38,963 nucleotides of DNA from Halobacteriovorax sp. (GCA_002716825.1 PBCC01000033.1:1-38963), one strand, 5' to 3'; numbered from the stretch's first letter, positions 7,851-27,934 are shown. Made by a program: numbers and translations. Notes: a model not told the origin generated them from the letters alone.

Positions 7851-9194
7851 TTACTTGAATTTGGTGGTTAAAAAGTGTGTGGCGTAATTATTGCCGACGA
7901 AATCTTTGTGATTGATTATTGAAAGGTGGAGTTTTTTATTTGTTTTAATTCCTTCAATAACCATCTCATTTAGTGCGCGATTCATGCGCTTAATACATTC
8001 TTCTCTGGTAGGGGCAGATACTATAATTTTCGCTAACATAGAGTCGTAGAATGGGGGCACTTTATATCCCGAATAAATAAAGTCATCTATTCGTACGCCG
8101 ATTCCTGCTGGACGATGATAGTGATCGATCTGCCCAGGGCACGGCATAGAGGTTTCTGGATCTTCAGCGTTGATACGACACTCCATTGTGTGCCCGCGAA
8201 AACTAATATCTTCTTGTTTAATTGTAAGCTTCTCGCCTTCGGCGACTCTGATTTGCCATGAGATCAAATCGATTCCAGTTCGCTCTTCGGTAACGGGATG
8301 CTCTACTTGAATACGCGTATTCATCTCCATGAAGTAAAATTTATCTTCATCTTGATCGTATAAAAACTCTACCGTTCCAACGCTGTCGTAATTTACGTGC
8401 TTAGCGAGGTTAACAGCAGCATCACAAACTTCTTTTCTTTTCTCAGGTGAAATAACCGGACAAGGGCTTTCTTCAATTAATTTTTGAAAGCGTCGCTGAA
8501 CGGTGCAATCGCGCTCGCCCAAATGAATGACATTACCATGCTTATCACCCAAAACTTGAACTTCAACGTGTCTTGGATTAACGATATACTTTTAAAAAAA
8601 TAAAGTATCATCTCCAAATCCTGCAAGTGCTTCGGTCTTGAGTCGTCTCGTTGTTGGAATTAAGTCCTCAATTTCATCGACTCGCTTCATGCCACGACCG
8701 CCACCACCGGCCGATGCCTTAACTAGAACAGGAAAACCCATATTCTTTGCATCTTCTAGAATTTGCTCGTCAGTTCGAGTGTTTACTAAAATTGGCTTTA
8801 AAACCGGAAGACCCGCTTTTTCCGCAATTTTCTTTGAGAGAATCTTATCTCCCATTTTTTCAATCGCTTCCAGATTGGGGCCAATAAAGGTAATTCCCCA
8901 CTTTTCGCACATTTTTGCGAACTCTCTATTCTCCGATAGAAAACCAAATCCAGGATGAACCGCATCAGCTTCAGTTATTTCGGCAGCCGATAAAATAGCT
9001 GGAATATTAAGATAACTTTGAGAGCTTTTAGCAGGACCGATACAAACTGATTCGTCTGCAAGTTTTACATGGAGCGAAGACTCGTCAGCAACACTGTGAA
9101 CGCTGACAGTGGCAATGCCTAGCTCTTTGCAACTTCTCACAACTCTAACGGCAATCTCACCGCGATTGGCTATAAGTATTTTTTTAAACTTCAC
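7851..9194 (-). pseudogene. accC: Biotin carboxylase subunit of acetyl-CoA carboxylase, interrupted by an in-frame TAA
   Basis: The reading frame is 447 codons, matching the ~449-residue family length, but codon 201 is TAA (bases 8592-8594). The N-terminal half carries the biotin-carboxylase N domain (KILIANRGEIAVRVVRSCKE) and the ATP-grasp glycine loop KASAGGGGRGMK. The C-terminal half continues in the same frame with KYIVNPRHVEVQVL, ERDCTVQRR, FMEMNTRIQVEHPVTE, ECRINAEDP and YDSMLAKI. All are conserved catalytic or ATP/biotin-site motifs. The stop replaces the Glu of the family motif (M/F)EK(Y/F)xxNPRH; GAA to TAA is one substitution. It is not a frameshift, because both halves share one phase. 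The gene starts 2 bp after accB. It could be a consensus error after a run of six T, a real nonsense mutation, or read-through. Because the flanks are undecayed, an error or a very recent event is most likely. Confidence 0.85.
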
Positions 9195-9644: not shown

Positions 9645-10214
9645 CTAGCCTTTAACACGCTCCATGTACTCACCTGTACGCGTGTCGATTTTCAAAATTT
9701 CACCCTCTTTAATAAAAAGAGGGACGTTGATTTGTAAACCTGTCTCCATAACAGCTTTTTTCATGCCGCCTGAAGCAGTATCACCTTTTAGACCTGGGTC
9801 GGTCTCTGTCACTTTTAATTCAACAAAGTTTGGAAGCTCGACCGCAATAGGTTTGCCGTTATAATATGTCAGCTTTAACTTAATACCTTCTTGCAAATAT
9901 CCCGACTCTTCTTCAACATATTCTTTGGCCACATGAATTGGCTCAAAGTTTGATTGATCCATGAAGTTGAAACCATCTTGATCGGCATATGTATACTCTA
10001 CGTCGCGCTCTTGAAGATCTGGTGCAACTAAACCTGTGGAAACACCTGACTTAAAGGTGCGCTCAAGGACTTGCCCTGTTTCTAAATTTCTCATACGACA
10101 TTTATAAAATGCCGACCCCTTTCCAGGGTTAGTGAAACTCGCCAAAAGAATAACGTAGGGCTTACCTTCCATTTCTACTTTTAAGCCTTTTCGTAAATCT
10201 GTAGTATCAACCAT
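9645..10214 (-). CDS. efp: Translation elongation factor P
   Basis: 189 residues, the usual length. EF-P binds ribosomes stalled at consecutive prolines and promotes peptide-bond formation. The N-terminal KOW-like domain contains the NPGKGSAF loop with Lys32 at the position of the modified lysine (Lys34 in E. coli). The ending GEILKIDTRTGEYMERVKG is the conserved C-terminal OB domain. Lysine at the loop tip would suit EpmA-type beta-lysylation, but no modification gene is in the window. The ATG at 10214 overlaps the end of aroQ by 8 bp, and accB starts 4 bp after the stop, so it sits in the middle of a coupled gene string. Confidence 0.98.
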   Translation of the reverse strand: MVDTTDLRKGLKVEMEGKPYVILLASFTNPGKGSAFYKCRMRNLETGQVLERTFKSGVSTGLVAPDLQERDVEYTYADQDGFNFMDQSNFEPIHVAKEYVEEESGYLQEGIKLKLTYYNGKPIAVELPNFVELKVTETDPGLKGDTASGGMKKAVMETGLQINVPLFIKEGEILKIDTRTGEYMERVKG

Positions 10215-10653
10215 GCCAGAGACCTTTTTTAATTAAGAGAGCCAATACGGCTACCAGGTAAACGTCCTTTCCTAGGCCCTCAATAATGCTCTCGACCGCT
10301 TGGGCCGTCAACTTGGTGCGACGGTATTCCTCCCTAGCTGCTGTATTTGATAGATGAACTTCTACTATCGGTTTTGCTACGCTTCTAAGAGCATCCATTA
10401 GGGCCAAGCTTGTATGCGAAAAGGCTCCAGGATTTATGATAAGCGCGTCATGATCTGACTTTCTTATGCTATGAATAATTTCAATCATTTCACCTTCATG
10501 GTTACTCTGCTTCCATTCCATATCCACAGCGTAGGATTGCAATGCATTTTCAGTAAATCCCTTAATCTCAGCCAGCGTCATATTGCCATAGATATCAACT
10601 TCTCTATCACCCAATAAATTCAAATTAGGACCGTTTAAAACCAAAATTTTCAT
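10207..10653 (-). CDS. aroQ: 3-dehydroquinate dehydratase, type II
   Basis: 148 residues. It converts 3-dehydroquinate to 3-dehydroshikimate in the shikimate pathway. Family motifs run in order: KILVLNGPNLNLLGDREVDIYG with the catalytic Arg17 and Tyr22, QSNHEGEMIEII, LIINPGAFSHTSLALMDAL, and EVHLSNTAAREEYRR with the catalytic His. The C-terminus is hydrophobic then basic (YLVAVLALLIKKGLWHG), slightly longer than a minimal homologue. It starts 15 bp after a TPR gene and overlaps efp by 8 bp. Placing aroQ upstream of efp and accBC is a common arrangement in several phyla. Confidence 0.97.
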   Translation of the reverse strand: MKILVLNGPNLNLLGDREVDIYGNMTLAEIKGFTENALQSYAVDMEWKQSNHEGEMIEIIHSIRKSDHDALIINPGAFSHTSLALMDALRSVAKPIVEVHLSNTAAREEYRRTKLTAQAVESIIEGLGKDVYLVAVLALLIKKGLWHG

Positions 10654-11610: not shown

Positions 11611-13431
11611 CTAGCCCCTATCTACTAGACCAGCTTCTTCCTGGTTAATAATTCTTGGAGTAAGAAAGATAATCATTTCATTTTTTGTAGTTGAAGGCGC
11701 ATATGGCGTCCTAAACAGCCAACCAATTAAGGGAATATCTTTCAAGAAAGGGATACCTGAATGCGATTCGCTCTTTGTGTATGAATAGATCCCACCTAAG
11801 ACGATCGTCGATCCATTATCAACGAGAACATTTGTATTCACCTTTCTCGTTTGTTTATTTGGCGGAGCATCTGGAGAAGGCCTTGTACCAAACTGTGACT
11901 TAGACAGGGCAATCTCAAGCGCGATAGAACCTTCATTCGTCACCTGAGGCGTAACCTCTAATGACAAGTCTGCTGATACTTCCTGAAAGGAGGTGCTCGC
12001 CGTGTCCCCAGCTCCAGTCGTCACCGTAAAACTAGTCGTATCAGTGGTTGAAAGATTAGCTTTCTTTTTGTTTTGAGTAATAACTTTTGGACTGGCAATA
12101 ATCTTGCCCTTAGATTCATTCTCCATCAACTGGAGTGCGAAGTTTAAATCTAGCAAGCGACCAAACTGACCGATTGAAAGCGAGAATAAGTTTCTAGCTG
12201 ACTCACCTGAAACTGGTGCAGAACTAAATGAGAAGCCAGGGCCAACATCAACTCCTGCACCACTGCCAGATGTTCCAAGATCACCAGCACTTGTGGCCGG
12301 AGCTCCTACTGGATCATAACCAAAGTTAAAGCCATTTTTCAGACCAATTTCTTTTGAGTATGACTCAGAAACTTCTACAATTTTACTTTCAATTAAAACT
12401 TGCGGAGTTTGTGTATCAAGAACTTCAATAATTTTTCTAATCTTTTCAATCGTCTCAGTTGTATCTTTTACGATGAGTGAATTGGTTCTAACGTCTTCAG
12501 CGATGGAACCACGATCTTTCGTAATATAACTTGTAATAATTGTTGAAAGCTCTTTTGTTGTCGCATAGGAAACGGGAAAGATTTTTGTCACAAGGGGCTC
12601 AGTGCTAAGAGCAGCAAGCTTAGTTTCTGCTTCTTGTTTTTTATCGTCAGTGGCACGTTGCAAACTTTGAACAATTAAAATTTTACCGTTTTTCTTAGCA
12701 ACAAGTTTATTCAAAGTCAGAATTGTATCAAGCGCCTGATCCCATGGAACGTTAGTTAGAGACAATGTTAGGGGCTCAGTTTTTTTAACGTCATCGGTTA
12801 GAATAACGTTAAAACCAGATACGTCCGAAATCATTTTCAAAATATCGCTTACAGGTACGGCCTTAACATTAATAGAAATACGCTTGCCGATATATTTTTT
12901 CTGACCTGATAGCGTTAGGTTTTCTAAAATATCATCAATAGATTCAGTCTTTGGAACAAGCAGTTCAGATGCTTTTGTTTTTGTGCCCGTAACCTTTTCT
13001 TCAAAGGCATTATTCTCTTCGATAACTCTTTGATTAAAAACACCAAATCTATTTTCTATTTGCAATACGATGGCGTTTTCTTTTCTTTTAAGCACGGATC
13101 TTACATTGTCTCGAAGCTGAATAGCTATTCTCAAATCGTTCTTAGATTCTGGCTTTTTATAGGCAGATACAAAGACAACAGCGCCACTAAATTCTGAGGC
13201 GTCAAAGGCTCGCATCACTCGCTCAGTGCTCGCTACATCTTCAAGATCGATAATAATTTGCTTATCTTCTTTGATTTGAAACTTACTAGCTTTGACATCA
13301 TTGGAGTCTAGAAGCAGTTCAAGCTGGCTTAGTTCGCCCTGTTGAGTAAAATTAATCGCCTTTAGCTCTTTGGCCAAAGCATTAACACTAAGACATAGTC
13401 CAATGAGGGTGAAGAAAAATCCATTTTTCAT
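11611..13431 (-). CDS. pilQ: Type IV pilus outer-membrane secretin PilQ
   Basis: 606 residues. It forms the outer-membrane channel through which the pilus passes. It has a signal peptide (MKNGFFFTLIGLCLSVNALA), one AMIN-like domain (about 22-115), and an STN domain (about 175-250; RISINVKAVPVSDILKMISD). An N1-type secretin domain follows (SLIVKDTTETIEKIRKIIEVLD), then the secretin core with ASPKVITQNKKKA, VDNGSTIVLGGIYS and GIPFLKDIPLIGWLFRT. A Gly/Ser-rich stretch (about residues 375-400) sits inside the core. The ATG has GAGG seven bases upstream. It lies 75 bp after pilP, the largest gap inside the pilM-Q set. That gap holds a hairpin and a weak promoter-like pair (TTTACT, 18 bp, TAGAAT at 13467-13496), so pilQ may have some independent control. 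Confidence 0.97.
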   Translation of the reverse strand: MKNGFFFTLIGLCLSVNALAKELKAINFTQQGELSQLELLLDSNDVKASKFQIKEDKQIIIDLEDVASTERVMRAFDASEFSGAVVFVSAYKKPESKNDLRIAIQLRDNVRSVLKRKENAIVLQIENRFGVFNQRVIEENNAFEEKVTGTKTKASELLVPKTESIDDILENLTLSGQKKYIGKRISINVKAVPVSDILKMISDVSGFNVILTDDVKKTEPLTLSLTNVPWDQALDTILTLNKLVAKKNGKILIVQSLQRATDDKKQEAETKLAALSTEPLVTKIFPVSYATTKELSTIITSYITKDRGSIAEDVRTNSLIVKDTTETIEKIRKIIEVLDTQTPQVLIESKIVEVSESYSKEIGLKNGFNFGYDPVGAPATSAGDLGTSGSGAGVDVGPGFSFSSAPVSGESARNLFSLSIGQFGRLLDLNFALQLMENESKGKIIASPKVITQNKKKANLSTTDTTSFTVTTGAGDTASTSFQEVSADLSLEVTPQVTNEGSIALEIALSKSQFGTRPSPDAPPNKQTRKVNTNVLVDNGSTIVLGGIYSYTKSESHSGIPFLKDIPLIGWLFRTPYAPSTTKNEMIIFLTPRIINQEEAGLVDRG

Positions 13432-13489
13432 AATTATCCTCGAAGAAAATCCTTTTTCTCCAGTTTATTCTAACACTTAAAGTCGCCAG

Positions 13490-13512
13490 GAGTAAAAAAT
13501 AACGTTTTACTC
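13490..13512. repeat. Perfect inverted repeat at the pilP-pilQ junction
   Basis: Arms GAGTAAAA (13490-13497) and TTTTACTC (13505-13512) are perfectly complementary, with a 7-base spacer. On the minus strand the 5' arm contains the pilP stop codon. The stem is AT-rich and no T-run follows it, so it does not look like a terminator. An RNA hairpin limiting or processing the message between pilP and pilQ is possible but unproven. Confidence 0.6.
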
Positions 13513-13986
13513 AACTGTTACCGGCATAATCGTTTCTATATATTCTTCCTGATCGTAAACGTTCTTAATCTTTTCTACCAAAACTATTCCACCAGGTAGA
13601 ATCGCTTTGACTTCTGCTTGATTAAATCCAAGCTTCATCCCTTCTTTAATTATATAGGTTTGGATATCCCCTGCTGCGCCAGCACCTTCTTGCTCGCTAG
13701 CAATCTTTGCGATTGCTCGTCTTTCATCACCTAGAATCACCCCTGTGATCTTGATTTGATCAAGTGGCACACCATCAAGCGTTGGCAGATTAGAAAAGAT
13801 AGTTTTATCTAGCTTATAATCTTTTGTTGATGTGGATTTAAGCTTTACCGCCTTTCTTTTGAATGGATCACGCATTTCAAAGGGGTTTGTTATATTGGTT
13901 TTAGTGCGCTTAAAGAACTCTGGTAGCTTCTTTTCAGCTGCGACTACTGTGCTCATTAGAATTGAGAGGAATAACACTAGTCTCAT
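13507..13986 (-). CDS. pilP: Type IV pilus alignment protein PilP
   Basis: 159 residues. PilP links the PilN/PilO inner-membrane complex to the PilQ secretin through the periplasm. It has a signal peptide (MRLVLFLSILMSTVVA, then AEKK), an unstructured basic region with the family FEMRDPFKRK motif (about residues 36-46), and a compact beta domain (KITGVILGDERRAIAKIA ... IKEGMKLG). Unlike many PilP proteins it has no lipobox cysteine, so it would be a secreted periplasmic or uncleaved anchored protein. Its ATG overlaps pilO by 4 bp. Confidence 0.92.
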   Translation of the reverse strand: MRLVLFLSILMSTVVAAEKKLPEFFKRTKTNITNPFEMRDPFKRKAVKLKSTSTKDYKLDKTIFSNLPTLDGVPLDQIKITGVILGDERRAIAKIASEQEGAGAAGDIQTYIIKEGMKLGFNQAEVKAILPGGIVLVEKIKNVYDQEEYIETIMPVTVE

Positions 13987-14606
13987 GCCTGCTCCTCCTC
14001 GCCTTCAACTTTAACTGGCTCAACATCTCTTTGCTCTTTGTGATCAGGATTATAGCGATAAGCTTCAATACTCATTTCAGCCTTAATGAGTTGAAAACGA
14101 CCGCGAACCTCTGTGCCAGAATCTTTAAACATCTTGATTGATTTAATATTGAGAAGTCTTTCATTTTCTGCAATTTTCTCCATCAATATTAGGATTTGAA
14201 GAAAAGTCCCTCTACCTTTAAGTTCGTAGCGTTTTTTAAAATAAAATCCTAGGTTTTCCTCTTGGCCTGGGACGATAGAGACGTCCCTAATATTCAGGCT
14301 GTCAGTGAAGCCTTGAAACATGGCAAGATTTTCAGGGTCGGAGATATTACTTGGTAGTTTCTTTTGAAGTGCTTCAACTTCCTGAGCTACCAATTCAATC
14401 CTTTTCTTGGCAGACTCGATATCGGCCATATAGGTATCAACTTCTTTTCGATCCCGCTTAAGTTTATTAATTCTATTTTGAATTACTGGAATAGTGCCTT
14501 GCTTACTTTCAACAAGCTCAGCATGTTCTGTATAAAGGTTATTAAGCTCATACGCTGAGTATAATATTAGGAAAAGCGGAAGGTATTTCATAAGTTTTGC
14601 AAACAT
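13983..14606 (-). CDS. pilO: Type IV pilus inner-membrane protein PilO
   Basis: 207 residues: a short cytoplasmic N-terminus, one membrane helix (about 7-24), a periplasmic coiled coil (about 27-90) and a ferredoxin-like C-terminal domain (YELKGRGTFLQILILMEKIA; KAEMSIEAYRY). This is the standard PilO layout; PilO dimerises with PilN and binds PilP. The C-terminal tail is acidic (EPVKVEGEEEQA). It starts 2 bp after pilN and overlaps pilP by 4 bp. Confidence 0.93.
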   Translation of the reverse strand: MFAKLMKYLPLFLILYSAYELNNLYTEHAELVESKQGTIPVIQNRINKLKRDRKEVDTYMADIESAKKRIELVAQEVEALQKKLPSNISDPENLAMFQGFTDSLNIRDVSIVPGQEENLGFYFKKRYELKGRGTFLQILILMEKIAENERLLNIKSIKMFKDSGTEVRGRFQLIKAEMSIEAYRYNPDHKEQRDVEPVKVEGEEEQA

Positions 14607-14608
14607 AA

Positions 14609-15223
14609 CTACCTCCCCATAATCTCAAAAGATTCAACTGTACCAGTTATTTCATAAGATTCCGTTCTAACTTCTCTTCCTCCATCGACTTCAGTTTTCG
14701 TCTCAGACTTTGCGAGGTTTAGAGAGTTTTTAAAATAAGGCGTTTCATTGAGAGTTACGATCAAATCACCAATGGATTTATACGAATCGGCTCCGCCCTT
14801 CAAAAACAGGCTTCTATCATCTTGTATAGTTAATTCATCAAACCACAGATCCTGCGGAGCTACTCGCGCCATGCGCTCAAGTAGTCTCTTTGGAGAAGTT
14901 TTTTCTTTTAAAATTCTATCAACTTGGGCAGATCTTTCTCTAAGCTTTTCGATTTGTCTTTTATAAGACTCAAGTTCTTGCTTAACGCCATCAAACGATT
15001 TCAAATCTTCTCGAACTGTCTTTGATTGGGCATCAAGAATTTCAATCTCTTTATCAAGAGATCTAATTTCTTCTTGCCACACTCCTGCCATATAGTTTTT
15101 AGGAATGTAGTAAATGAGGATGGCAACAAAGAGAAGCTTGAAATTGATGGTTCTAACATCAACACCTAAAACCACGACTGGCTTTGAGTTCTTCTTACGC
15201 TCGATGAGATTAATCTTAATCAC
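14609..15223 (-). CDS. pilN: Type IV pilus inner-membrane protein PilN
   Basis: 204 residues. The N-terminal MIKINLIERKK corresponds to the conserved INLLPxR-type peptide that docks into cytoplasmic PilM. One membrane helix follows (about residues 28-45), then a periplasmic coiled coil (about 52-100) and a C-terminal ferredoxin-like domain (PQDLWFDELTIQDDRSLFLK onwards). Its ATG overlaps the end of pilM by 4 bp, as expected for proteins made in fixed ratio. Confidence 0.94.
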   Translation of the reverse strand: MIKINLIERKKNSKPVVVLGVDVRTINFKLLFVAILIYYIPKNYMAGVWQEEIRSLDKEIEILDAQSKTVREDLKSFDGVKQELESYKRQIEKLRERSAQVDRILKEKTSPKRLLERMARVAPQDLWFDELTIQDDRSLFLKGGADSYKSIGDLIVTLNETPYFKNSLNLAKSETKTEVDGGREVRTESYEITGTVESFEIMGR

Positions 15224-16344
15224 TTATCGAGCTCCCGCATGGCAAGACCTATAACAGAAACTCCGCGGTGAACGAGTTGATCAATATCTTCTTCGCTAAA
15301 ATCCGATTCATCATAAGAGATAGCATCAAAAGGATTAAGCTTTCTGACGGGGAAGCCTAAAAGAGCTTCAAGCCCTTCAAGTAGACCTGGTATCTGAGAA
15401 GAACCACCAGTTATATAACAACCAGAAAAGGCCTCATCTGAAGTGGAGCTAACATAGAAATCAAGAGTCTTTTTAAGTTCAGAAAAAAAGCTTTCAATGA
15501 CTGAGTCAATAATCTCAACAATTTCTTCAGGCAGGTTTCCGCTTTGATCTCCTGTTATTTTGAGATCTTCAGCTTCCTTATAATTAACACCCATTTGCCT
15601 TTGAATTTCTTCGGTGATCATGAGACCGCCGATATTAATTTGCTTAGCGAACGAGATCATTCCATTTTTGTAGATTAGAAACTCGGTTTTTTGAGCACCA
15701 ATATCAAGTAGCACCCAAGAACTTCTCTCAGCTGCCGCTAACTCTTCGGCCGCTGCTAACTCAAACACATTCACGAGTGATATTTGTAATAGATCGACAA
15801 TCTTTGGCTTAAGCCCTGAGAGTTCAATGACATCTTTAAAACTGTCGATTAAATCTTTCCTGGCAGCACCGACAACAACGTCGACTCCGCCACCTTCGTT
15901 TTCACCAACAATATGAAACGATATACTAGAGTCTTCAACGTCGAACGGTATATACTGTTCGGCTTCCCAAATAACCTGATCTTCAATTTCTTCAGGAGTT
16001 CCACCAGCAAGCTGCAACCTTCTCGCCACAGTGTTTGATCCCCAAAGGCCAAGACAAACTAATGGTGTCGAAAATTTTCCGCGCTTATAAGCTTGTGCGA
16101 CACATTCGACGATCTGTTCTTGGTTTTGAATCTCATCTTCAATGAGTGCTCCCTCTGGCAAAGGGACGAAAGACTGTCTTACTAATTCGAAGTTACCTTT
16201 TTTTGATTTTTTAAGCTCAACGATTTTTACCGCACTGAAGCCAATATCAATCCCAACGAGATTGCGAGGCCCAATTTTGAGCGTATCTTTAATTTGTTCG
16301 ACCAAGTCATCAATGACTTTTTTTGGGTCTATTGGCGTTGACAA
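15220..16344 (-). CDS. pilM: Type IV pilus actin-like ATP-binding protein PilM
   Basis: 374 residues. It is a cytoplasmic actin/FtsA-fold protein that binds the PilN N-terminus and connects the motor platform to the alignment complex. Nucleotide-fold motifs are visible: VGIDIGFSAVKIVELKK (phosphate 1), VLLDIGAQKTEFLIY (phosphate 2) and YITGGSSQIPGLLEGLE (adenosine). The start is TTG at 16344, with an AGGAG ribosome-binding site about 6 bases upstream; no ATG fits better. It is the first gene of the pilMNOPQ string and lies about 40 bp downstream of a consensus-like promoter. Confidence 0.96.
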   Translation of the reverse strand: MSTPIDPKKVIDDLVEQIKDTLKIGPRNLVGIDIGFSAVKIVELKKSKKGNFELVRQSFVPLPEGALIEDEIQNQEQIVECVAQAYKRGKFSTPLVCLGLWGSNTVARRLQLAGGTPEEIEDQVIWEAEQYIPFDVEDSSISFHIVGENEGGGVDVVVGAARKDLIDSFKDVIELSGLKPKIVDLLQISLVNVFELAAAEELAAAERSSWVLLDIGAQKTEFLIYKNGMISFAKQINIGGLMITEEIQRQMGVNYKEAEDLKITGDQSGNLPEEIVEIIDSVIESFFSELKKTLDFYVSSTSDEAFSGCYITGGSSQIPGLLEGLEALLGFPVRKLNPFDAISYDESDFSEEDIDQLVHRGVSVIGLAMRELDK

Positions 16345-16442: not shown

Positions 16443-17225
16443 TTAGTACGGAATAAGGAAGTTTTGCCACTGCGCAAAAATATCTGGAAACAAAAGCTGT
16501 ATCAGCGCCGTGATGAGAATGTATGGCCCAAAGGGAATATATTGATCTCGCTTAACTCTTCCAGAGATCATTAAAACAATCGTTATCAAACTACCCAGCA
16601 TGCAGCTTGAAAACAAATTGATCAATACACCTTTAACTCCAAACAATAACCCTAGGATTCCAAAAAGTTTAATATCTCCACCACCAAGACCGATTTGTCC
16701 TCGAAGCAGGTAAAATATCCAAGTGATAAGAAGCGGAAATCCAAAGCCGATGACTGCCCCTACGCCTGCATCGAACCAACTTTCATTGATCGCCACGATC
16801 ACCAACACAAAGGGAACTAATGCGAGATTTAACTTATCTAGTAAAAGCTGATGCCTTAGATCAATTAAGATATGCGCCGAAAAAATACTTGCTATAAAGA
16901 AAGCCGAGATTGCTTCAAGCCACTGTGAATTTGAAAAGGTGATCCAAGATGAGAAAATATAGACAGCCAAAAGTGCATGCCATATTTCAAACAGTGGATA
17001 CTGCCAGGATATTTTCTGCTGACAATTTCGGCATTTACCTAATAAAAAAGCGAAAGAGAAAATTGGAATATTGTCATACCAGCTAATTTTACCTTTGCAC
17101 TTTGGACAGCCCGATCTTTCAAAGACAATATCTTCAGATCGTGGAAGTCTTAGAACGACAACATTCATAAAGCTTCCAATCAGTGCCCCCCAGACAAGTG
17201 AAAGTAGTGTCGCCGTAAACTCCAT
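16443..17225 (-). CDS. pilD: Type IV prepilin peptidase / N-methyltransferase
   Basis: 260 residues. It cleaves the prepilin leader after Gly and methylates the new N-terminal Phe at the inner membrane. The N-terminal domain has the zinc-type pairs CPKC (Cys40, Cys43) and CRNC (Cys65, Cys68). The membrane domain has the two expected aspartates, one in ILIDLRHQLLLD (about 122) and one in GLGGGDIKLFG (about 184). There are about seven hydrophobic segments. I start at the ATG at 17225, which overlaps the permease stop as TGATG; a TTG three bases earlier is the alternative. pilD is the third gene of the ABC-permease-pilD set. Confidence 0.95.
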   Translation of the reverse strand: MEFTATLLSLVWGALIGSFMNVVVLRLPRSEDIVFERSGCPKCKGKISWYDNIPIFSFAFLLGKCRNCQQKISWQYPLFEIWHALLAVYIFSSWITFSNSQWLEAISAFFIASIFSAHILIDLRHQLLLDKLNLALVPFVLVIVAINESWFDAGVGAVIGFGFPLLITWIFYLLRGQIGLGGGDIKLFGILGLLFGVKGVLINLFSSCMLGSLITIVLMISGRVKRDQYIPFGPYILITALIQLLFPDIFAQWQNFLIPY

Positions 17226-17992
17226 CAATCAAGGCTCTTTCTATGGATCAAAACTGCCCCCATAATCATGAGTGCTATGATGAAACATAAAGAATGGCCA
17301 AGGGTTGCAAAAAGCGTATTTAACTCAATCCCCTGCTGATAGATCAGGTAATCCTTAAGATTGAGCCTAGAGAAATTCGGAAGAGAGATATTTACAATTT
17401 TCAATATGGTGTTAAATACGGGTGCCTGTGCAAACTGATTAGAGTCTAACAGTGCTGCTGAAACATAACCGCCAACGTAAGCACTTACGCCCAAAAGTAT
17501 CGCTAAAACTTTAGAGCAAAACAAGGAGCAAGTTACAACTGTTAATAACAGTAACAAGGATTCAATAAATATAAAAATCAGTGCCCAAGCCATGAGACTG
17601 TCAATTGCCCCCCCCATAATTAAAAATAATGCTATTGAGAAAGGGCCGAGGATCATAACATTTAAAAAAAGCATTGAGCTCATACCGAGTGTTCGACCTA
17701 AAAAGTATTCCACCTTTGATATCGGCCTAGAGAGGATGAGGTAAATGGATCTATTTTCGATTTCACTCTGGATAATATTTACCCCGTAAAAAATCGCAAT
17801 AAACTTAACGGCTAGAGAAGTTAAACCAATGCCAATATCCAGAGCTATTTTTTCAGGGCTACCATATGCAAGCTCTGATGCAACATAAGAAGTTAGCAGC
17901 AAGGCGATACCTAGAAAAACAATATTTAGCAAAAGCTTGCTTTTAACGGCTTCATTGAAAGTATAATGTGAAACAATTAAGATTTTTTTCAC
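17225..17992 (-). CDS. ABC-2 type transporter permease in the pilus locus (PilI-like by position)
   Basis: 255 residues with about six membrane segments, starting with a cytoplasmic amphipathic N-terminus (MKKILIVSHYTFNEAVKSK). The conserved ABC-2 segment ENRSIYLILSRPISKVEYFLGR is followed by hydrophobic helices; there is no ATPase domain. It begins directly after the ATPase gene, whose stop ends at 17993, and runs into pilD. The family moves lipids, polysaccharides or peptides across the inner membrane. In Myxococcus xanthus, PilH (ATPase) and PilI (permease) occupy the same place before pilD and are needed for pilus formation. The assignment here is by position, and the substrate is unknown. 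Confidence 0.88.
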   Translation of the reverse strand: MKKILIVSHYTFNEAVKSKLLLNIVFLGIALLLTSYVASELAYGSPEKIALDIGIGLTSLAVKFIAIFYGVNIIQSEIENRSIYLILSRPISKVEYFLGRTLGMSSMLFLNVMILGPFSIALFLIMGGAIDSLMAWALIFIFIESLLLLLTVVTCSLFCSKVLAILLGVSAYVGGYVSAALLDSNQFAQAPVFNTILKIVNISLPNFSRLNLKDYLIYQQGIELNTLFATLGHSLCFIIALMIMGAVLIHRKSLD

Positions 17993-18904
17993 TTATATTC
18001 TCTTATTTGTTTGATAAACAATGTCTTCAAGTGTCGGATTAACTTCTAAAAAGCGCACCAACTCGCCTTTTTGCGAACTCAGAGCTGCCAAAAGTTCATT
18101 ACGATTTTCTTTTTTTATAATTATTTTCGAGTATCCGTCCGCAAGCGATATTATGTCACCTAGAGACTTAAACTGATCACTATCACTAACTTTATATATG
18201 ACTTCGCAAAGACCGCTTGATCTACTTACCAGAAGGTCGCTAACCTTTCCGTCATAGATCATGCTTCCTTTATCTAAAACTATAAGTGAGCTACATATCT
18301 CTTCAATATCTGAAACAATATGACTACTAAAAAATATTGTCTTGCCTGCTTTATTAAGTTCGACCATGACATCTTTTATTTCTTTGCGCCCAACTGGATC
18401 TAGACCAGATACGGGTTCATCTAAAATTAAAAAATTAGGATCATGGACGAGACAGGCGACAAAGCCAATTCTCTGGAGCATACCCTTTGAATAATTATGC
18501 AATTTTCTATCAAGGGCGTGATCGATTCCCAGCCTTTCGCCCCAGTGCTTAATTTGAGCTCTGTAATCCGGTCGTTTCATGTCGTGTAGCTTGGCCATAT
18601 ATTCAACAAAATCTTGACCGGTTAAGTTGGCATGAAAGTATGGTCGCTCTGGTAAATATCCCAAGTTCTTAATAAATTGCTTATAGCTTGATCCGAACTT
18701 GTTTGAGTACCTGACTTGACCGCTATCAGATTGAATAAAGTTTAGTATAATTTTAATGGACGTTGTCTTACCAGCACCATTAGCGCCGAGAAATCCACAG
18801 ATATCACCATCATTGACAGAAAAACTAACTTTTTTAAGCGCTTCGAAGCGACTCTTAAAAAGATCTTTTTTAAATGTTTTTTGAATATCTACCAGCTCGA
18901 TCAT
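17993..18904 (-). CDS. ABC transporter ATP-binding protein in the pilus locus (PilH-like by position)
   Basis: 303 residues. Motifs run in order: Walker A GANGAGKTTS (about 40-49), signature YSKGMLQRIGF, Walker B FLILDEPVSGLDP and the switch histidine in FFSSHIVSD. The ~80-residue C-terminal extension is typical of ABC-2 exporters such as the NatA/GldA/YbhF type. The ATG at 18904 has no Shine-Dalgarno and lies 7 bases from a TATAAT, which suggests a leaderless message. The partner permease follows with no gap. M. xanthus PilH is the obvious functional parallel. Confidence 0.92.
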   Translation of the reverse strand: MIELVDIQKTFKKDLFKSRFEALKKVSFSVNDGDICGFLGANGAGKTTSIKIILNFIQSDSGQVRYSNKFGSSYKQFIKNLGYLPERPYFHANLTGQDFVEYMAKLHDMKRPDYRAQIKHWGERLGIDHALDRKLHNYSKGMLQRIGFVACLVHDPNFLILDEPVSGLDPVGRKEIKDVMVELNKAGKTIFFSSHIVSDIEEICSSLIVLDKGSMIYDGKVSDLLVSRSSGLCEVIYKVSDSDQFKSLGDIISLADGYSKIIIKKENRNELLAALSSQKGELVRFLEVNPTLEDIVYQTNKRI

Positions 18905-18930
18905 AAATCAATTATAATCGTTTCATGATT
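18898..18930. promoter_or_regulatory. Symmetric divergent promoter, probably leaderless on both sides
   Basis: Only 20 bp (18905-18924) separate two opposed ATG codons. The centre ATTATAAT (18911-18918) is a perfect palindrome that reads TATAAT on both strands: 18913-18918 on plus and 18911-18916 on minus. Each -10 lies 6-7 bases from the start codon it faces, and neither start has a Shine-Dalgarno. The dyad extends outward to ATCAT/ATGAT at the ends. TTGTAA on the minus strand, 16 bp from the -10, is a partial -35. No clear -35 is visible for the plus direction. Confidence 0.6.
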
Positions 18931-19749
18931 CATTACAATCTTAAATACCTTGGAAAGAGTCTTTGCATTATCTTAGTGCTGGGTACACTGATAGGCTCTG
19001 CTTCAGCGCTGAAGAAACACTTTCCCCTTAAGCCGCCCTTAGTAAACAAAGAGAATACTTCAATTAATTTAAAACCGATTCTCTATCAAACATTCACTCT
19101 AGGTTATTCACGACTTTTAAGCTCAACTCTATGGATAGCAACACTTCTTGAAAGCGACATTGAACATTATAAAGGCAAAAAAAACTCTTGGATGTACTAC
19201 CGATTTTTAGCCATTTCAAAGCTTGAACCTCGATTTTATCAAAACTATCTATTTGGAGGTCAATACCTATCAATTATTAAGGATGATATTTTTGGGGCTG
19301 ATCATATCTACAGTCTCGGCTTAAAACTTTATCCCGCAGACTTTAAATTAAATTATCACGCTGGATTTAATGCTGCGTTTGAAATTGGCGATTATTCGCT
19401 CGCACTTAAATATTATAATTCGATTTACGACTTACCCGAAGTGCAGACAAAGTATCCATCACTCCTCTCCATTATTAACAAACTAAGGCTTAGTAGCGGA
19501 CAATTAAACCTGAAAGAAGTTTTTGACCTTATGCTACTGAGCCGTCAAAACTCGACCAATGAGGCGGTTAATAAGTCGCTTGATCATTACCTCTACTCAA
19601 TAAAAGCAGAACTAGACCTTATTTGTCTTAATTCTCGCGCAACAGACAACTGTAGTAAACATGACTACTTTGGAGAAACATACAAGAGAACTCCAGATGG
19701 AAACTGGCGAGCACAGAAAGAATGGGTGCCGTACCGTTTAAAAAAATAG
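18925..19749 (+). CDS. Membrane-anchored TPR-like protein of the pilus locus (PilG-like by position)
   Basis: 274 residues of unknown family. A hydrophobic N-terminal segment (about residues 9-28, LGKSLCIILVLGTLIGSASA) acts as an anchor or signal; the rest would be periplasmic. The middle (about 85-190) reads as helical TPR-like repeats (RFYQNYLFGGQYLSIIKDD; KLNYHAGFNAAFEIGDYSLALKYY). Two cysteines near residues 231 and 241 could pair. It is the only large plus-strand gene, sitting between pilA and the ABC ATPase, exactly where M. xanthus has pilG, an accessory pilus gene. Homology to PilG is not shown. The stop codon lies inside the terminator hairpin of pilA. Confidence 0.85.
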   Translation: MIHYNLKYLGKSLCIILVLGTLIGSASALKKHFPLKPPLVNKENTSINLKPILYQTFTLGYSRLLSSTLWIATLLESDIEHYKGKKNSWMYYRFLAISKLEPRFYQNYLFGGQYLSIIKDDIFGADHIYSLGLKLYPADFKLNYHAGFNAAFEIGDYSLALKYYNSIYDLPEVQTKYPSLLSIINKLRLSSGQLNLKEVFDLMLLSRQNSTNEAVNKSLDHYLYSIKAELDLICLNSRATDNCSKHDYFGETYKRTPDGNWRAQKEWVPYRLKK

Positions 19750-19770
19750 CCCCGCACAAAGGCGAGGCTA
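19740..19770 (-). terminator. Intrinsic terminator of pilA
   Basis: On the minus strand a hairpin with arms TAGCC...GGCTA plus CGC/GCG (one mismatch, 6-base loop; 19747-19770) is followed directly by seven T (19740-19746), a good rho-independent terminator 24 bp after the pilA stop. The same hairpin faces the plus-strand gene, whose TAG stop is its first three bases. On the plus side the trailing sequence is only moderately T-rich, so termination there is less certain. Confidence 0.85.
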
Positions 19771-19793
19771 TTATACTCTCTTAATTTTAATTC

Positions 19794-20366
19794 TTAATAG
19801 CCTCTATTCCCCTGGGTCATGAACTTGTTCTGGTCAATTGCCCACTGGCTTGTAGCACCGTTTGTGGTGGAACCGTCGGTTCTAATGATGCCTTCAGCAC
19901 CTGCGACGAAAGCCGTCTGACTTGTCGCTATTGTTAAAGTGCTGTGGGTTGGTAGTGTTACTGTTGGAGTACCTGTACCTGCCTTACCTGCACGATACCA
20001 GTTTGTACCTTCAGCAGAAGTTTGTGTACAACCAGTGCTTAAGCTGGTGCTAACACCCGCGGCTAGAGTTAGAGCCGCTACCCCGACAGAATAATAGCGA
20101 TTTAAACGCTCATTAGACGCATCATAACCAATATATGCTAAACAACTCGCATAAGTATCGTAGTCAGCAGCAGTTGCTAATTGAGCTGAATAAAGTGCGG
20201 CTAACTGAAGCTTTGCCTCTGAAGTTTTTGACTTGGCTTGATATTGCTTAAAGTTAGGAATGGCAACAGCTGAAAGAATACCAATAATGGCAACAACAAC
20301 CATAAGCTCAACGAGCGTAAAACCAGACTGCGTTCGGACTTTAAAGTCCTTAAAAAAAGTACCCAT
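19794..20366 (-). CDS. pilA: Type IV pilin, major subunit PilA
   Basis: 190-residue prepilin. A 15-residue basic leader ends in Gly (QSG), followed by the mature N-terminus [20 protein letters not shown] with Phe+1 and Glu+5, the class III signal cut by PilD. The hydrophobic helix runs to about residue 40. The globular part has two cysteines (in [10 protein letters not shown] and STGCTQTS) that could form a disulfide loop, and is Thr/Ser/Ala-rich. The start is the ATG at 20366 because a strong GGAGG lies five bases upstream; a GTG 12 bases earlier lies in front of that site and is rejected. It follows pilC after a 250-bp structured leader and ends at an intrinsic terminator. Confidence 0.97.
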
Positions 20367-20371
20367 ACGAA

Positions 20372-20376
20372 CCTCC
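20372..20376 (-). promoter_or_regulatory. Ribosome-binding site fixing the pilA start
   Basis: GGAGG on the minus strand, five bases before the ATG at 20366. It abuts the palindrome CCACTAGTGG (20375-20384) and shares GG with its right arm, so local folding could modulate access. Confidence 0.75.
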
Positions 20377-20384
20377 ACTAGTGG

Positions 20385-20616: not shown

Positions 20617-21834
20617 CTAGTTGCCACCGGCCGACATAAAGATTGGAAGGTACATAGCGACCAAAACAATTGCCACCATGCCGCCTAAGAACACGATAAT
20701 AAAGGGTTCGATCAGCTTGGTCATATTGGTCACCAATTCATTAACTTCGTCCTCGAAGACCTCTGCGACTTTTTCAAGCATATCGTCAACTCGCCCCGTT
20801 TGCTCACCAACACGGATCATCTGGCTCACCATATCTGGAAAATAGTCGATCTTAGTTAGAGGCTCAGTTAATGTTTTACCTTGCTCGATCGCCTTTCTGA
20901 CGGTTTTAAGGTCTTTAGCCACGACTCCGTTATCAATCGTCTCAACGCAAATCTCTAGCGAGTCAATTAGTGAGACGCCTGAACTAAGAAGCGTCGACAT
21001 GGTTCTACAAAAGGAGGCTAGATTACCTTTAACCACGATAGGGCCAAAGACTGGAAGTCTCATCATAAAATTATCAAAGGCAACTTTACCAGTCTCTGTC
21101 TTAATATAGTTTTGAAGCAGAATAACTAAAACGATCAATCCAGGAATTCCCACCAGTGAATATTCTTGAATGAAATTAGAGCAATCAATCACCATCTGAG
21201 TAATCCATGGCGGCTCTTGGCCAGTGTCTTTGAGCATGTCCACAAATTGCGGAACAACGAAAGTCATTAAGCCCCAAATCACAGCAAGCCCGACAAAGAC
21301 TACAATGGCTGGATAGGTCATGGCCGATTTAATCTGAGCCTTAATCTTCTCAGCGCGGTCCATATGCTCGCCGAGTTTTTTTAGAATATCATCGAGAATA
21401 CCACCTGCTTCACCGGCCTTGACGAGATTGCAATAAAGGCGATCAAAGCCCTTTTGCTTGCTCATAGCCTCAGCCAGTGTCTTTCCTTCACCGACATCAA
21501 TCGAGATTGTTTTAACGGCATTTTTTAGAGAGGGATTTCTCTCTGACTTAAATAGAATCTCAAGCGCCTGAATAATTGGAACACCGGCGTCAGTCATAAT
21601 TGCCAACTGCTTAGTAAAGGTCATAAGTTCTTTAGGTCCAAAGGATTTGGCCAAGCCCTTGGCCACCATCCACTCACCGATATCGAACTCTAAAAAAGAA
21701 GGTGGCGTAATTTTTTTTACACGAATGCCCTTGGCACGCAACGTACGGCGTACTTCCTTTTCGTCAGCGGCGTTAACCGTACCGCTTTCTCGCTGGCCGT
21801 CCTTATTGAGGCCTTCCCAGCCGTAATTCGCCAT
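20617..21834 (-). CDS. pilC: Type IV pilus inner-membrane platform protein PilC
   Basis: 405 residues, GspF/PilC family. It is the platform in the inner membrane that couples the PilB and PilT motors to pilin assembly. Two repeated GspF domains are visible, the first around residues 68-190 (LMTFTKQLAIMTDAGVPIIQ; GFDRLYCNLVKAGEAGGILDDIL). The second is around 270-395 (FCRTMSTLLSSGVSLIDSLE; VSQMIRVGEQTGRVDDMLEK). Three membrane helices are present, one after each repeat region and one near the end (IIVFLGGMVAIVLVAMYLPIF). The N-terminus starts MANYGWEGLNKDGQRESG. It lies 18 bp after pilT. Confidence 0.97.
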   Translation of the reverse strand: MANYGWEGLNKDGQRESGTVNAADEKEVRRTLRAKGIRVKKITPPSFLEFDIGEWMVAKGLAKSFGPKELMTFTKQLAIMTDAGVPIIQALEILFKSERNPSLKNAVKTISIDVGEGKTLAEAMSKQKGFDRLYCNLVKAGEAGGILDDILKKLGEHMDRAEKIKAQIKSAMTYPAIVVFVGLAVIWGLMTFVVPQFVDMLKDTGQEPPWITQMVIDCSNFIQEYSLVGIPGLIVLVILLQNYIKTETGKVAFDNFMMRLPVFGPIVVKGNLASFCRTMSTLLSSGVSLIDSLEICVETIDNGVVAKDLKTVRKAIEQGKTLTEPLTKIDYFPDMVSQMIRVGEQTGRVDDMLEKVAEVFEDEVNELVTNMTKLIEPFIIVFLGGMVAIVLVAMYLPIFMSAGGN

Positions 21835-21852
21835 CTTAACTTTCCCTCTTCA

Positions 21853-22965
21853 CTATTCTTTTAATCCAAGCTTTTTAGCTAATTCTTCAGGTACCGTTGC
21901 ATAACTCATGGCCGTCTCTGGTGAGATCAAGCCCGATTCAACAAATCTGACAAGCGACTGGTTCATCGTCACCATGCCGGTTTTATCTTGTCCAATTTGC
22001 ATCTGTGAATAAATTTGGTGAACCTTGTCTTCACGAATAAGATTTCTAATCCCTGTTGTTGGGACCATTACTTCCATTGCGGCGACTCGTCCCGGTTCAA
22101 ACGACTTAGGAATAAGCTGCTGGGCCACAACACCTTGGAGAACAAATGATAAAAGTGTTCGAATCTGTTCTTGCTGGTCAGATGGGAAAACGTTCACAAT
22201 ACGATTGATCGTTTGCACACACGAGTTGGTGTGAAGCGTACCAAAAACTAAGTGTCCAGTTTCTGCAATAGTCAGGGCCGCTTCAATTGTCTCAGCATCT
22301 CTAAGCTCACCCACCAAAACAATATCTGGATCCTGTCTTAGAAGTGACTTGAGTGCTTTATGGAATGATAATGTATCCGTACCAATTTCTCGTTGATTCA
22401 CGATACAGTTTTTATGTGGATGCACGAATTCGATAGGATCTTCTAGTGTAATGATATGACCGGCTTCTTTTTCATTAAGTCGATCTAGGAGTGCTGCAAG
22501 GGTCGTAGATTTACCCGAACCAGTCGGACCAGTAACAAGGATTAGACCGTTTGAAACATCTGTCATTTCAAGTAAAACATTTGGAAGATTAAGTGCTTTG
22601 AAATCAGGAATGATGCTTGGAATTGTTCTAAAAACAGCAGCAACTCCACCTTTAGAATAAAAAACGTTGGCACGAAAACGCGCGAGACCTTTAATCCCAA
22701 AGGAAAAGTCGAGCTCCATATTCTTTTCATACTCGGCGCGCTGGTTCTCAGAAAGAATTTGATACACAAGTCGCTTTGTATCCTCTCCACTCAATGATGG
22801 AATTTTAACTCTCACAACTTCGCCGTTAACTCTCAGTCCAGGGGAGGAGCCAACTGTTATATGTAAATCCGATGCCCCACTATCAATCATCAGCTTAAAG
22901 AGCTGCTGGATCTTAACTTCTCCTGCTCCGCCCTGCTTGGTTTTAGTAACTGTTTGATCCGACAT
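21853..22965 (-). CDS. pilT: Type IV pilus retraction ATPase PilT
   Basis: 370 residues. A hexameric motor ATPase that powers pilus disassembly. It has Walker A GPTGSGKSTT (about residues 145-154), Asp box ITLEDPIEF, Walker B ILVGELRDAETIEAAL and His box TGHLVFGTLHTN. The retraction-specific C-terminal motif GIRNLIRED corresponds to the AIRNLIRE of PilT proteins and separates it from PilB. The ATG at 22965 follows AAGGAG, and the pilB stop lies inside that site, so the two genes are tightly coupled. Confidence 0.97.
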   Translation of the reverse strand: MSDQTVTKTKQGGAGEVKIQQLFKLMIDSGASDLHITVGSSPGLRVNGEVVRVKIPSLSGEDTKRLVYQILSENQRAEYEKNMELDFSFGIKGLARFRANVFYSKGGVAAVFRTIPSIIPDFKALNLPNVLLEMTDVSNGLILVTGPTGSGKSTTLAALLDRLNEKEAGHIITLEDPIEFVHPHKNCIVNQREIGTDTLSFHKALKSLLRQDPDIVLVGELRDAETIEAALTIAETGHLVFGTLHTNSCVQTINRIVNVFPSDQQEQIRTLLSFVLQGVVAQQLIPKSFEPGRVAAMEVMVPTTGIRNLIREDKVHQIYSQMQIGQDKTGMVTMNQSLVRFVESGLISPETAMSYATVPEELAKKLGLKE

Positions 22966-22974
22966 GGATGCTCC

Positions 22975-24648
22975 TTAAAATTTATCTGAACCCGAGTTCA
23001 TCACAGCTTCATCGAGAGTCGTTAGACCTTGAGCGACCTTGGTTAGCGCCGACATTCTTAGTGTCTTCATACCGTCCTTGATTGCCTGTTTTTTAATATC
23101 ATCAGAAGACGAGTTTCTAAGAATGAGATCCTTCAGACCTGGAGTCATCCCCATCACTTCGTAAATAGCTACTCGACCCTTATAGCCCGTATTATTGCAG
23201 TAATCGCAACCTTCGCCTTTATAGACTTTAATTTTTGAGGCTGACTGGGGCGCAATGCCACAGGCTACTAATTCCTCAACACCTACTTTATGTTCAACCT
23301 TGCACTCGACACATATGCGTCGACATAGTCTTTGTGCCACGATTACATTGAGGGCACCCACGACTAAAAACGGCTCAATTCCCATATTGATCAAACGAGT
23401 GACCGTTGAGGGAGCATCATTTGTATGAAGTGTAGAGAGAACGAGGTGACCAGTTAAGGCTGCCTCAACAGCAATTTCACCAACCTCAAGGTCGCGAATC
23501 TCTCCCACCATAATAATGTCGGGGTCTTGTCTTAAGAATGACTTCAATGCAGAGGCGAATGTTAATCCAATATCGCGACGAACGTTCACCTGATTAATGC
23601 CCTGTAGATTAAATTCAACGGGGTCTTCAGCTGTTGAAATATTTGTTGCTACTTTATTGAGGTCAGCGATCGCTGAATAAAGCGTTGTCGTCTTACCTGA
23701 ACCTGTTGGACCTGTGACCAAACACATTCCAAAAGGTTGATAAATGCCTTCCTTGAAAACAGCTAATTGCTTTGCTTCAAAGCCAAGCTTTGTCATATCG
23801 AGCTGAAGGTTAGATGAATCCAGGAGTCGAAGCACAATTTTTTCACCAAAAAGCGTCGGCAAGGATGAAACGCGATAATCAATAGGCGCGCCACCAATTT
23901 GCAGCTTAATTCTCCCATCCTGTGGTTTTCTTCGCTCGGCGATATCCATTTGAGCCATGATCTTCAATCGCGAAATCATAGGCAGCATCAGTTTTTTCTG
24001 TGGTTCGGCCATTTCGACTAGCTTTCCATCAATGCGAAAGCGAATACGAAATATTTTTTCATAGGGTTCAATATGAATATCTGAAGCTTTTTTAATGAAA
24101 GCTTCGGCCAGAATACGATTAACAAATGTAATCATCTCCGAGCCAATATCCTCTTCTCTTACTGTTTCGTTATCCTTTCCCTGATCGGGAAGAACCTCTT
24201 TAATAGTGGATAGTAGCTCATCAATTGACTCTGTTACGCGTGAATAGATCTTCTCCCAAGCGGAGAGGTTGGTGAGAATAAACTCGACTGGGCTTTGAAA
24301 CACAGACTGAAGCTCGGCCCTCAGATTAACAACCGAAGGATCAAAAATAGCCAGACTAACGGCAGACGAACTTTTTTGAATCGGCAGCATTCTATATTTA
24401 AGAACATCAGATTTTTTTGAGAGTTTAAGAATGCGTTCTTTAATTTTTGCTTTAGATAGATCAATAAACGTTAAGTTATAATTTTCGGCCAATTGCTTTG
24501 CAAATTTCACATCGTCAAAGAAATCGAATTGTAAGAGACCAAACTCAGAGACTGTGTTTGGATCTTTATCTAGCATCAGTGGGCGCAGGTCCTTAATCGG
24601 TACCATCCCAGTCTTGCTGATAACTTCGGCAAATTCCTTTCTGAACAT
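22975..24648 (-). CDS. pilB: Type IV pilus extension ATPase PilB
   Basis: 557 residues. A motor ATPase that powers pilin polymerisation. The N-terminal MshEN/GspE-N domain (about 1-150) is followed by the SDIHIEPYE arginine-finger region and Walker A GPTGSGKTTTLYS (about 315). Next come the Asp box STAEDPVEF, Walker B IIMVGEIRDLEVGEIAVEAA and His box LSTLHTNDAPSTVTRL. A zinc-binding tetracysteine follows (CVEC at about 447 and CDYC about 40 residues later), characteristic of PilB and absent from PilT. AGGA lies eight bases before the ATG. It begins the pilB-T-C-A set 53 bp after aroE; only a weak -10 (TATAAA) is visible in that gap, so read-through from aroE is possible. Confidence 0.97.
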   Translation of the reverse strand: MFRKEFAEVISKTGMVPIKDLRPLMLDKDPNTVSEFGLLQFDFFDDVKFAKQLAENYNLTFIDLSKAKIKERILKLSKKSDVLKYRMLPIQKSSSAVSLAIFDPSVVNLRAELQSVFQSPVEFILTNLSAWEKIYSRVTESIDELLSTIKEVLPDQGKDNETVREEDIGSEMITFVNRILAEAFIKKASDIHIEPYEKIFRIRFRIDGKLVEMAEPQKKLMLPMISRLKIMAQMDIAERRKPQDGRIKLQIGGAPIDYRVSSLPTLFGEKIVLRLLDSSNLQLDMTKLGFEAKQLAVFKEGIYQPFGMCLVTGPTGSGKTTTLYSAIADLNKVATNISTAEDPVEFNLQGINQVNVRRDIGLTFASALKSFLRQDPDIIMVGEIRDLEVGEIAVEAALTGHLVLSTLHTNDAPSTVTRLINMGIEPFLVVGALNVIVAQRLCRRICVECKVEHKVGVEELVACGIAPQSASKIKVYKGEGCDYCNNTGYKGRVAIYEVMGMTPGLKDLILRNSSSDDIKKQAIKDGMKTLRMSALTKVAQGLTTLDEAVMNSGSDKF

Positions 24649-25388: not shown

Positions 25389-26302
25389 GACCAAGCCTTT
25401 GCCACTTCAGAATCTTTGGCAATTTGTGCTTTCAGCTCATCAACACCGGAAAAGCGTTTTTCTTCACGTATTTTGCCAAGAAAGATCACCGTCATCTCTT
25501 CATCGTAAAAGTCATCAATGCTAGAGAAGATATGAGTCTCAATTGTCATATGCAGGCTATCGTTAAATGTTGGGTTAAAACCGATATTAGTCACAGACTG
25601 ATATGTCTTACCGCGCAGAACTGCTTTTGTCGCATAGACACCTGTACTAGGCGCAATAAGCTCTTCAGCGATTTGCAGATTTGCCGTCGGGTAACCGATT
25701 CCCTTTCCTCGTCCTTTGCCCTTTACAACTTTGCCCTTTAATGAAAAATGACGCCCCAGAAAGCTCGAAATTCGCTCAACATTCCCTTTTCTGATAAGTT
25801 CTCTAATAACACTTGAAGAGATGTGTTCTGACTTATCACCACAAAACTCTTTTAAAGCGACAAGTTCAATTCCACTATTTTTAAGCATTTCATCAAATGT
25901 TGAATAATCACCAGATTTATGAGCACCAAAAGCAAAGTCGTAACCAAGGCATAGCAGTTTCATTCGATCTACATTTTGGACATATTGCTCAACAAACTGA
26001 GTTGCAGTGGTGGCACTAAAGTCTCTCGTAAAGGGTATCTCTATGAGATAGTCAACACCTAACGATTTTAATAGCGATCTTCGCTCTTCATAACCCGACA
26101 CAAGAAACCCGCGCATCGCTCTTAAAATTTGAGCCGGGTGTGGAAAAAACGTAATAACAACAAATTTAAGATTCTGACTCTTACATTTTTCTCGAACTTG
26201 CTCAAGCATAGCAACATGACCCAAATGGACGCCATCAAAGTTTCCAATGGTTGCTCCAAAGTCGTGTTCAACTATATCTTTCGTATGATTTAGAATTTTC
26301 AT
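25382..26302 (-). CDS. ribF: Bifunctional riboflavin kinase / FAD synthetase
   Basis: 306 residues, the standard length. It makes FMN and then FAD from riboflavin. The N-terminal nucleotidyltransferase domain has GNFDGVHLGHVAML (HxGH motif) and FVVITFFPHPAQIL, then LCLGYDFAFGAHKSGD and SSSVIRELIRKGNV. The C-terminal kinase domain has GRGKGIGYPTANL, GVYATKAVL and NIGFNPTFND, then ETHIF. The ATG overlaps the end of the BatD gene by 4 bp (ATGA), an unusual coupling of flavin synthesis to an envelope operon. Confidence 0.97.
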   Translation of the reverse strand: MKILNHTKDIVEHDFGATIGNFDGVHLGHVAMLEQVREKCKSQNLKFVVITFFPHPAQILRAMRGFLVSGYEERRSLLKSLGVDYLIEIPFTRDFSATTATQFVEQYVQNVDRMKLLCLGYDFAFGAHKSGDYSTFDEMLKNSGIELVALKEFCGDKSEHISSSVIRELIRKGNVERISSFLGRHFSLKGKVVKGKGRGKGIGYPTANLQIAEELIAPSTGVYATKAVLRGKTYQSVTNIGFNPTFNDSLHMTIETHIFSSIDDFYDEEMTVIFLGKIREEKRFSGVDELKAQIAKDSEVAKAWSC

Positions 26303-27933: not shown

Positions 27934-27934
27934 T

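Follow-up and report, generated by a model that had tools for sequence, protein, structure and literature searches.

Described systems and the pil locus of the window

Myxococcus xanthus encodes PilG, PilH and PilI (MXAN_5782, 5781 and 5780) between pilA and pilD. Mutants deleted for pilG, pilH or pilI are counted among those without pili (PMC3724824, PMC5544727), and loss of the whole pilGHI cluster by deletion blocks both S motility and EPS (PMC5544727). In Bdellovibrio bacteriovorus pilG (Bd1291) adjoins pilA (Bd1290) (PMC3818213), and the same pair is found in the genomes of family f6, probably the Bdellovibrionaceae, in which pilH-pilI-pilD-pilM form a separate locus. The GldA-GldF-GldG system of gliding Bacteroidetes is likewise a motility ABC system, and GldA is the best NCBIfam match of the PilH described here, but the score (185.4 bits) is far below the GldA cut-off (402.6 bits) and no Gld or T9SS genes were seen in the pil locus. 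In NosDFY the ABC pair does mechanical work together with a periplasmic protein that is separate from it. This copper-site maturation complex (PMC11573801) has in common with PilGHI a small ATPase, a six-helix permease and a third protein outside the pair, which in NosDFY is the right-handed beta-helix NosD and not a TPR protein. The PilGHI locus, in contrast, is linked to the pilus, and no copper enzyme genes are found in it.

We have analysed a window of 38,963 nucleotides from Halobacteriovorax sp. (GCA_002716825.1 PBCC01000033.1:1-38963), that is, the whole stretch of DNA, which contains a complete type IVa pilus locus (Table 1). All its pil genes but one lie on the minus strand, in the order pilB-pilT-pilC-pilA, pilH, pilI, pilD-pilM-pilN-pilO-pilP-pilQ, the exception being pilG. 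An earlier note on this DNA had proposed that an anchored TPR-like protein, an ABC ATPase and an ABC-2 permease occupy here, between pilA and pilD, the positions of pilG, pilH and pilI of Myxococcus, with the first gene inverted and pilS/pilR missing. The three genes are indeed where it placed them, within a complete pilBTC-A-...-D-MNOPQ locus, and they belong to the same three protein families as those of M. xanthus. Compared with M. xanthus, pilG is inverted, and hence not collinear with pilA and pilH, and there is no pilS or pilR between pilC and pilA. What we have is a known module in a new gene-order variant, and, unlike in f6, all the genes are together. Since pilI follows pilH without a gap and shares 4 bp with the start of pilD, pilH-pilI-pilD look like one translation-coupled operon.

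Table 1. Features of the pil locus, in positions of the window
Feature	Position	Strand	Remark
pilM, pilN, pilO, pilP, pilQ	11611-16344	-	pilQ at 11611-13431
pilD, prepilin peptidase	16443-17228	-	next gene of the pilHI operon throughout the phylum
pilI, six-helix ABC-2 permease (PF12679)	17225-17992	-	NosY-like
pilH, ABC ATPase	17993-18904	-	
gap between pilH and pilG start codons, 20 bp	18905-18924		palindrome ATTATAAT at 18911-18918
pilG	18925-19749	+	sole plus strand gene, between pilA and pilH
terminator-like hairpin	19745-19772	-	between the ends of the converging genes pilA and pilG
pilA, major type IV pilin	19794-20378	-	GGAGG ribosome-binding site
pilC, pilT, pilB	20617-24648	-	pilB at 22975-24648

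Some other genes of the window were assigned by eye. Upstream of the pil locus there is a Bat-type aerotolerance operon (26299-33134; MoxR ATPase, DUF58, two VWA proteins and a BatD-like protein), and at 1-6271 a TamA/BamA-like gene adjoins a TamB-like one. The biotin carboxylase gene accC (7851-9194) is in two pieces, with one ORF at 7851-8552 and the other at 8592-9194, apparently because of a frameshift, which would be either an assembly error or a damaged gene in this draft genome.

Identity of PilG, PilH and PilI

The three genes are almost certainly orthologues of M. xanthus pilG, pilH and pilI, given that homology, a near-exclusive linkage to pilus genes and common descent have all been shown. 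A profile of the PilGs of the window's family aligned with M. xanthus PilG over 181 columns (hhalign probability 99.3, E 7.6e-21), and an HMM built from 30 of these family PilGs matched 28 Myxococcota-type pilus-locus proteins, M. xanthus PilG among them (39.8 bits). The myxobacterial loci, of which L042 is that of M. xanthus, were fetched with an M. xanthus PilA query as bait, the sequences analysed being those of the fetched records. When four whole myxobacterial genomes were searched with the family profile the top match was in each case a PilG-like protein, and in the genome of M. xanthus the profile matched the PilG of the pil locus and nothing else.

PilG is widespread. The window protein has matches in 112 of the 129 genomes of its class (70 of the 73 near-complete ones), and PilG was found in 243 out of 291 genomes of its phylum (199/222 of those near-complete) and in 132 out of 146 genomes belonging to the M. 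xanthus phylum. The window's phylum is taken as Bdellovibrionota on the strength of its gene content and of the published Bd1290/Bd1291 pair (PMC3818213). No PilG was detected with the family profile in G143 and G135 (L143, L144), though pilHI are present there, so that it is either lost or too diverged. The absence from the genus-mate G113 and from G009 is only apparent, because in both the contigs end inside the pil locus. One genome (G311) has two pilG copies close together after pilA (L124:8773-9504 and 9848-10366).

The window PilG has no match in Pfam or NCBIfam, and PilG profile searches of PDB gave no significant match. Its AlphaFold2 model (mean pLDDT 79.9) consists of a transmembrane helix followed by paired helices, and the best Foldseek matches of this model were consensus TPR proteins such as 1na0 (TM 0.79 on the target). 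The words “TPR-like” and “anchored” of the earlier note thus agree with the predicted structure, according to which PilG is a membrane-anchored TPR protein, a description that is new here. The parts of the protein are an N-terminal transmembrane anchor, a TPR-type helical domain and a short C-terminal tail, which in the window PilG carries two cysteines (C234 and C243) and a D-x-x-G-x-x-Y motif. Both cysteines were present in 30/30 family PilGs examined and the motif in 26 of the 30 tails. A C-terminal cysteine pair suits the oxidising periplasm and fits with a periplasmic location of the domain, and PilG may be the periplasmic partner of the transporter, which is consistent with the data.

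The myxobacterial proteins differ in this region, as in place of the short tail with the cysteine pair they have a longer C-terminal module. Secondary matches of the myxobacterial PilG profile fell mostly on its last 75 positions; the three that we examined (L248, L246 and L247) all match Pfam T2SSG, two above the cut-off and one just below it, and M. xanthus PilG (L042:11300-11632) gave E 3e-6 in a single comparison with a GspG. From these matches, myxobacterial PilG seems to carry at its C-terminal tip something resembling the head of the major pseudopilin GspG. That the tail of the window's family is the same module is unsupported, hhalign on the tails alone giving a probability of 0.2%.

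The motifs of an ABC ATPase can be read in PilH (Walker A GANGAGKTT, signature YSKGM, Walker B LILDEP, H-loop SSH). When 79 ATPases were placed in a maximum-likelihood tree (a quick tree, midpoint-rooted), all 55 pilus-locus PilHs stood apart from 24 other ABC ATPases by a single change with SH-aLRT 92, the window PilH falling inside its own family. The earlier note would have been refuted by a lack of likeness to M. xanthus PilG and by closest ATPase relatives outside pilus loci; the opposite was found on both counts. It could be thought that an unrelated housekeeping ABC-2 exporter and a TPR protein had landed in the pil locus by chance, there being many ABC ATPases in the genome. We consider this extremely improbable, as the single PilH group in the tree and a linkage conserved across two phyla already contradict it, and where its neighbours could be read PilG mostly adjoins pilus genes.

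The permease is the orthologue of PilI and belongs to PF12679, and a PF12698 search of its own genome gave no match. With a PilI profile the partner was found in 29/29 genomes tested, always adjoining a pilH-like ATPase gene. It adjoins pilD together with pilM, or else pilG, in nearly all genomes bearing pilus genes, even where pilA-pilG lies elsewhere. The matches were weak in G113, where the pil locus is cut by the contig end, and in G131 and G139, which have neither PilG nor a pilT-family match over the cut-off. Among solved structures PilI has a single convincing relative, NosY, both by sequence (E 2e-9) and by fold, a relationship that is new here; the best fold matches of the PilI model (pLDDT 82.5) are the NosY chains of NosDFY, with TM of about 0.6-0.74. 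Along the same lines, the best prokaryotic PDB relative of PilH is NosF.

Gene order and the inverted pilG

A search of gene neighbourhoods in both phyla, as the earlier note had suggested, showed that the linkage of PilGHI to pilus genes is conserved across them. In the window's family pilG opposes pilH in 42/42 distinct loci, the window included (these being the loci where both genes could be read), and opposes pilA in 37/37. The inversion seen by the earlier note is therefore fixed in the family and is not an oddity of one genome. A collinear pilAGHI operon is absent in this family, but it is found in Myxococcus and in family f17 of the window's phylum, while in most other families sampled of the phylum pilA-pilG is separated from a second locus with pilH-pilI-pilD-pilM. 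Collinearity is not a criterion of homology here, because other families, with their split loci, differ in gene order as well. The simplest history would be that the collinear pilAGHI was ancestral, with one inversion in the window's family and splits elsewhere. When the locus breaks up, the links that are kept are those of pilG with pilA and of pilHI with pilD and pilM.

The lack of pilS/pilR is also a trait of the whole family. Both are lost from the locus and have no close orthologue in the family, where the best candidate for a dedicated PilR scored 357 bits against 539 between pilus-locus PilRs. This is in line with the reported absence of pilRS in Bacteriovorax marinus (PMC6060248).

Two further observations concern these neighbourhoods. 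In L113, L115, L117, L120, L121 and L123, which come from other families of the phylum, pilA-pilG adjoins dnaJ-dnaK, and in several of them also clpS/clpA; the other pil genes are elsewhere in most of these loci, the exception being L123, where pilB-T-C-S-R still adjoins pilA. Besides, a record named Candidatus Hydrogenedens (L065) carries a pil locus of myxobacterial type with PilGHI, and is perhaps mislabelled, or the locus transferred.

Being turned round, pilG is probably expressed from its own promoter, facing pilH. The start codons of the two genes face each other, and in relatives, where the starts could be read (some start codons are uncertain), the gap is often of 7-42 bp. The palindrome ATTATAAT lies exactly midway between the two ATGs in the window, so that either ATG has a -10 element 6 nt ahead of it. 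In the family, -10-like boxes 5-7 nt before the start were found for 25 of 43 pilG genes (10.8 expected after shuffling) and for 22 of 43 pilH, compared with 5/40 for pilI and 1/38 for pilA. There is no apparent Shine-Dalgarno site before the window pilG or pilH, and pilA has a clear one. The position of the boxes suggests leaderless divergent transcripts, and ATTATAAT is a candidate for a shared -10 element, a putative symmetric bidirectional promoter of two leaderless mRNAs. It is quite possible, if somewhat less likely than not, that by taking pilG out of the pilA transcript such a promoter ties the level of PilG to that of PilHI and not to that of the pilin, whichever the mechanism of the complex. 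Short gaps between facing starts in relatives, the enrichment of boxes before both genes and the central palindrome all point in this direction. However, matches to a consensus box carry little weight where the DNA is AT-rich, the relatives are not independent and have the uncertain starts mentioned above, and the pilAGHI genes of M. xanthus make up a single operon (PMC3546991).

Transport or mechanical work

Our main reading, to which as a whole we would give a probability of roughly 0.6, is that the three orthologues form an inner-membrane ABC complex dedicated to the assembly of type IVa pili, and that this complex likely works as a NosFY-like motor. Sequence and structure together suggest, by analogy, a mode of action like that of NosDFY rather than that of an ordinary transporter. 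It is the likeness of PilI and PilH to NosY and NosF, together with the transmembrane-TPR model of PilG and its cysteines, that favours a motor working PilG from inside. The analogy rests on PilI and PilH, as PilG is a TPR protein and not a beta-helix like NosD. The two genomes with pilHI in which no PilG was detected, G143 and G135, also speak against it.

Two copies of PilH and two of PilI would form the ATP-driven motor. PilI, itself without a large outer domain, would change shape upon binding and release of ATP and would pass its movement on to PilG, anchored in the inner membrane and with its TPR domain outside. This domain might then grip the pilin, or else the PilM-N-O-P/PilC platform, and could help the pilin to leave the bilayer or to dock for the polymerisation driven by PilB/PilC, so that nothing need cross the membrane. 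That PilHI acts in this manner through PilG, by putative contacts of PilG with PilI and with the pilin, we would put at a little short of even odds. More tentative still is the full version, a mechanotransmission machine in which the ATP-driven PilHI moves a TPR arm (PilG) that loads or extracts pilins on the inner membrane's outer side without any substrate crossing; the arm of myxobacterial PilG would then end in a domain like the GspG head.

The main rival takes up the older view of the Myxococcus system. PilHI would be a true exporter, carrying across the inner membrane a substrate that pilus building needs (pilin, or some peptide, lipid or glycan), and PilG would be a periplasmic receiving or accessory factor. 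In the literature PilGHI has been annotated as an efflux ABC transporter with an accessory factor (PMC3546991) and called essential for pilin translocation (PMC3724824); the passage concerned in the latter takes this earlier reading from Wu 1998. PilI belongs to the family of ABC-2 export permeases, and, to the detriment of the motor, the next, fair fold matches of its model are PmtCD, which exports peptides, and lipid exporters of the ABCG type, while the overall best PDB sequence matches of PilH are the ABCA lipid transporters (ABCA1/4). Yet the protein closest to PilI, by both sequence and fold, comes from a machine for metalloenzyme assembly. Moreover, pilins normally enter the membrane by the general Sec/SRP route, and therefore an exporter for them is not required. 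We regard export as rather unlikely, although a serious contender.

The genetics of M. xanthus fits both the motor and the exporter. With a Walker A variant of PilB, EPS is restored to mutants deleted for pilG, pilH or pilI, as to one deleted for pilA, but not to pilC or pilM-Q mutants (PMC3724824). This pattern places PilGHI nearer to the supply of pilin than to the core machine.

These results indicate that the PilGHI module is an old one, present almost throughout two phyla with type IVa pili. Its role in pilus assembly seems unsettled in the papers considered here, and NosDFY offers a solved template for the mechanical model. Instead of asking what this transporter moves, one can thereby test whether it transports at all or does mechanical work on PilG.
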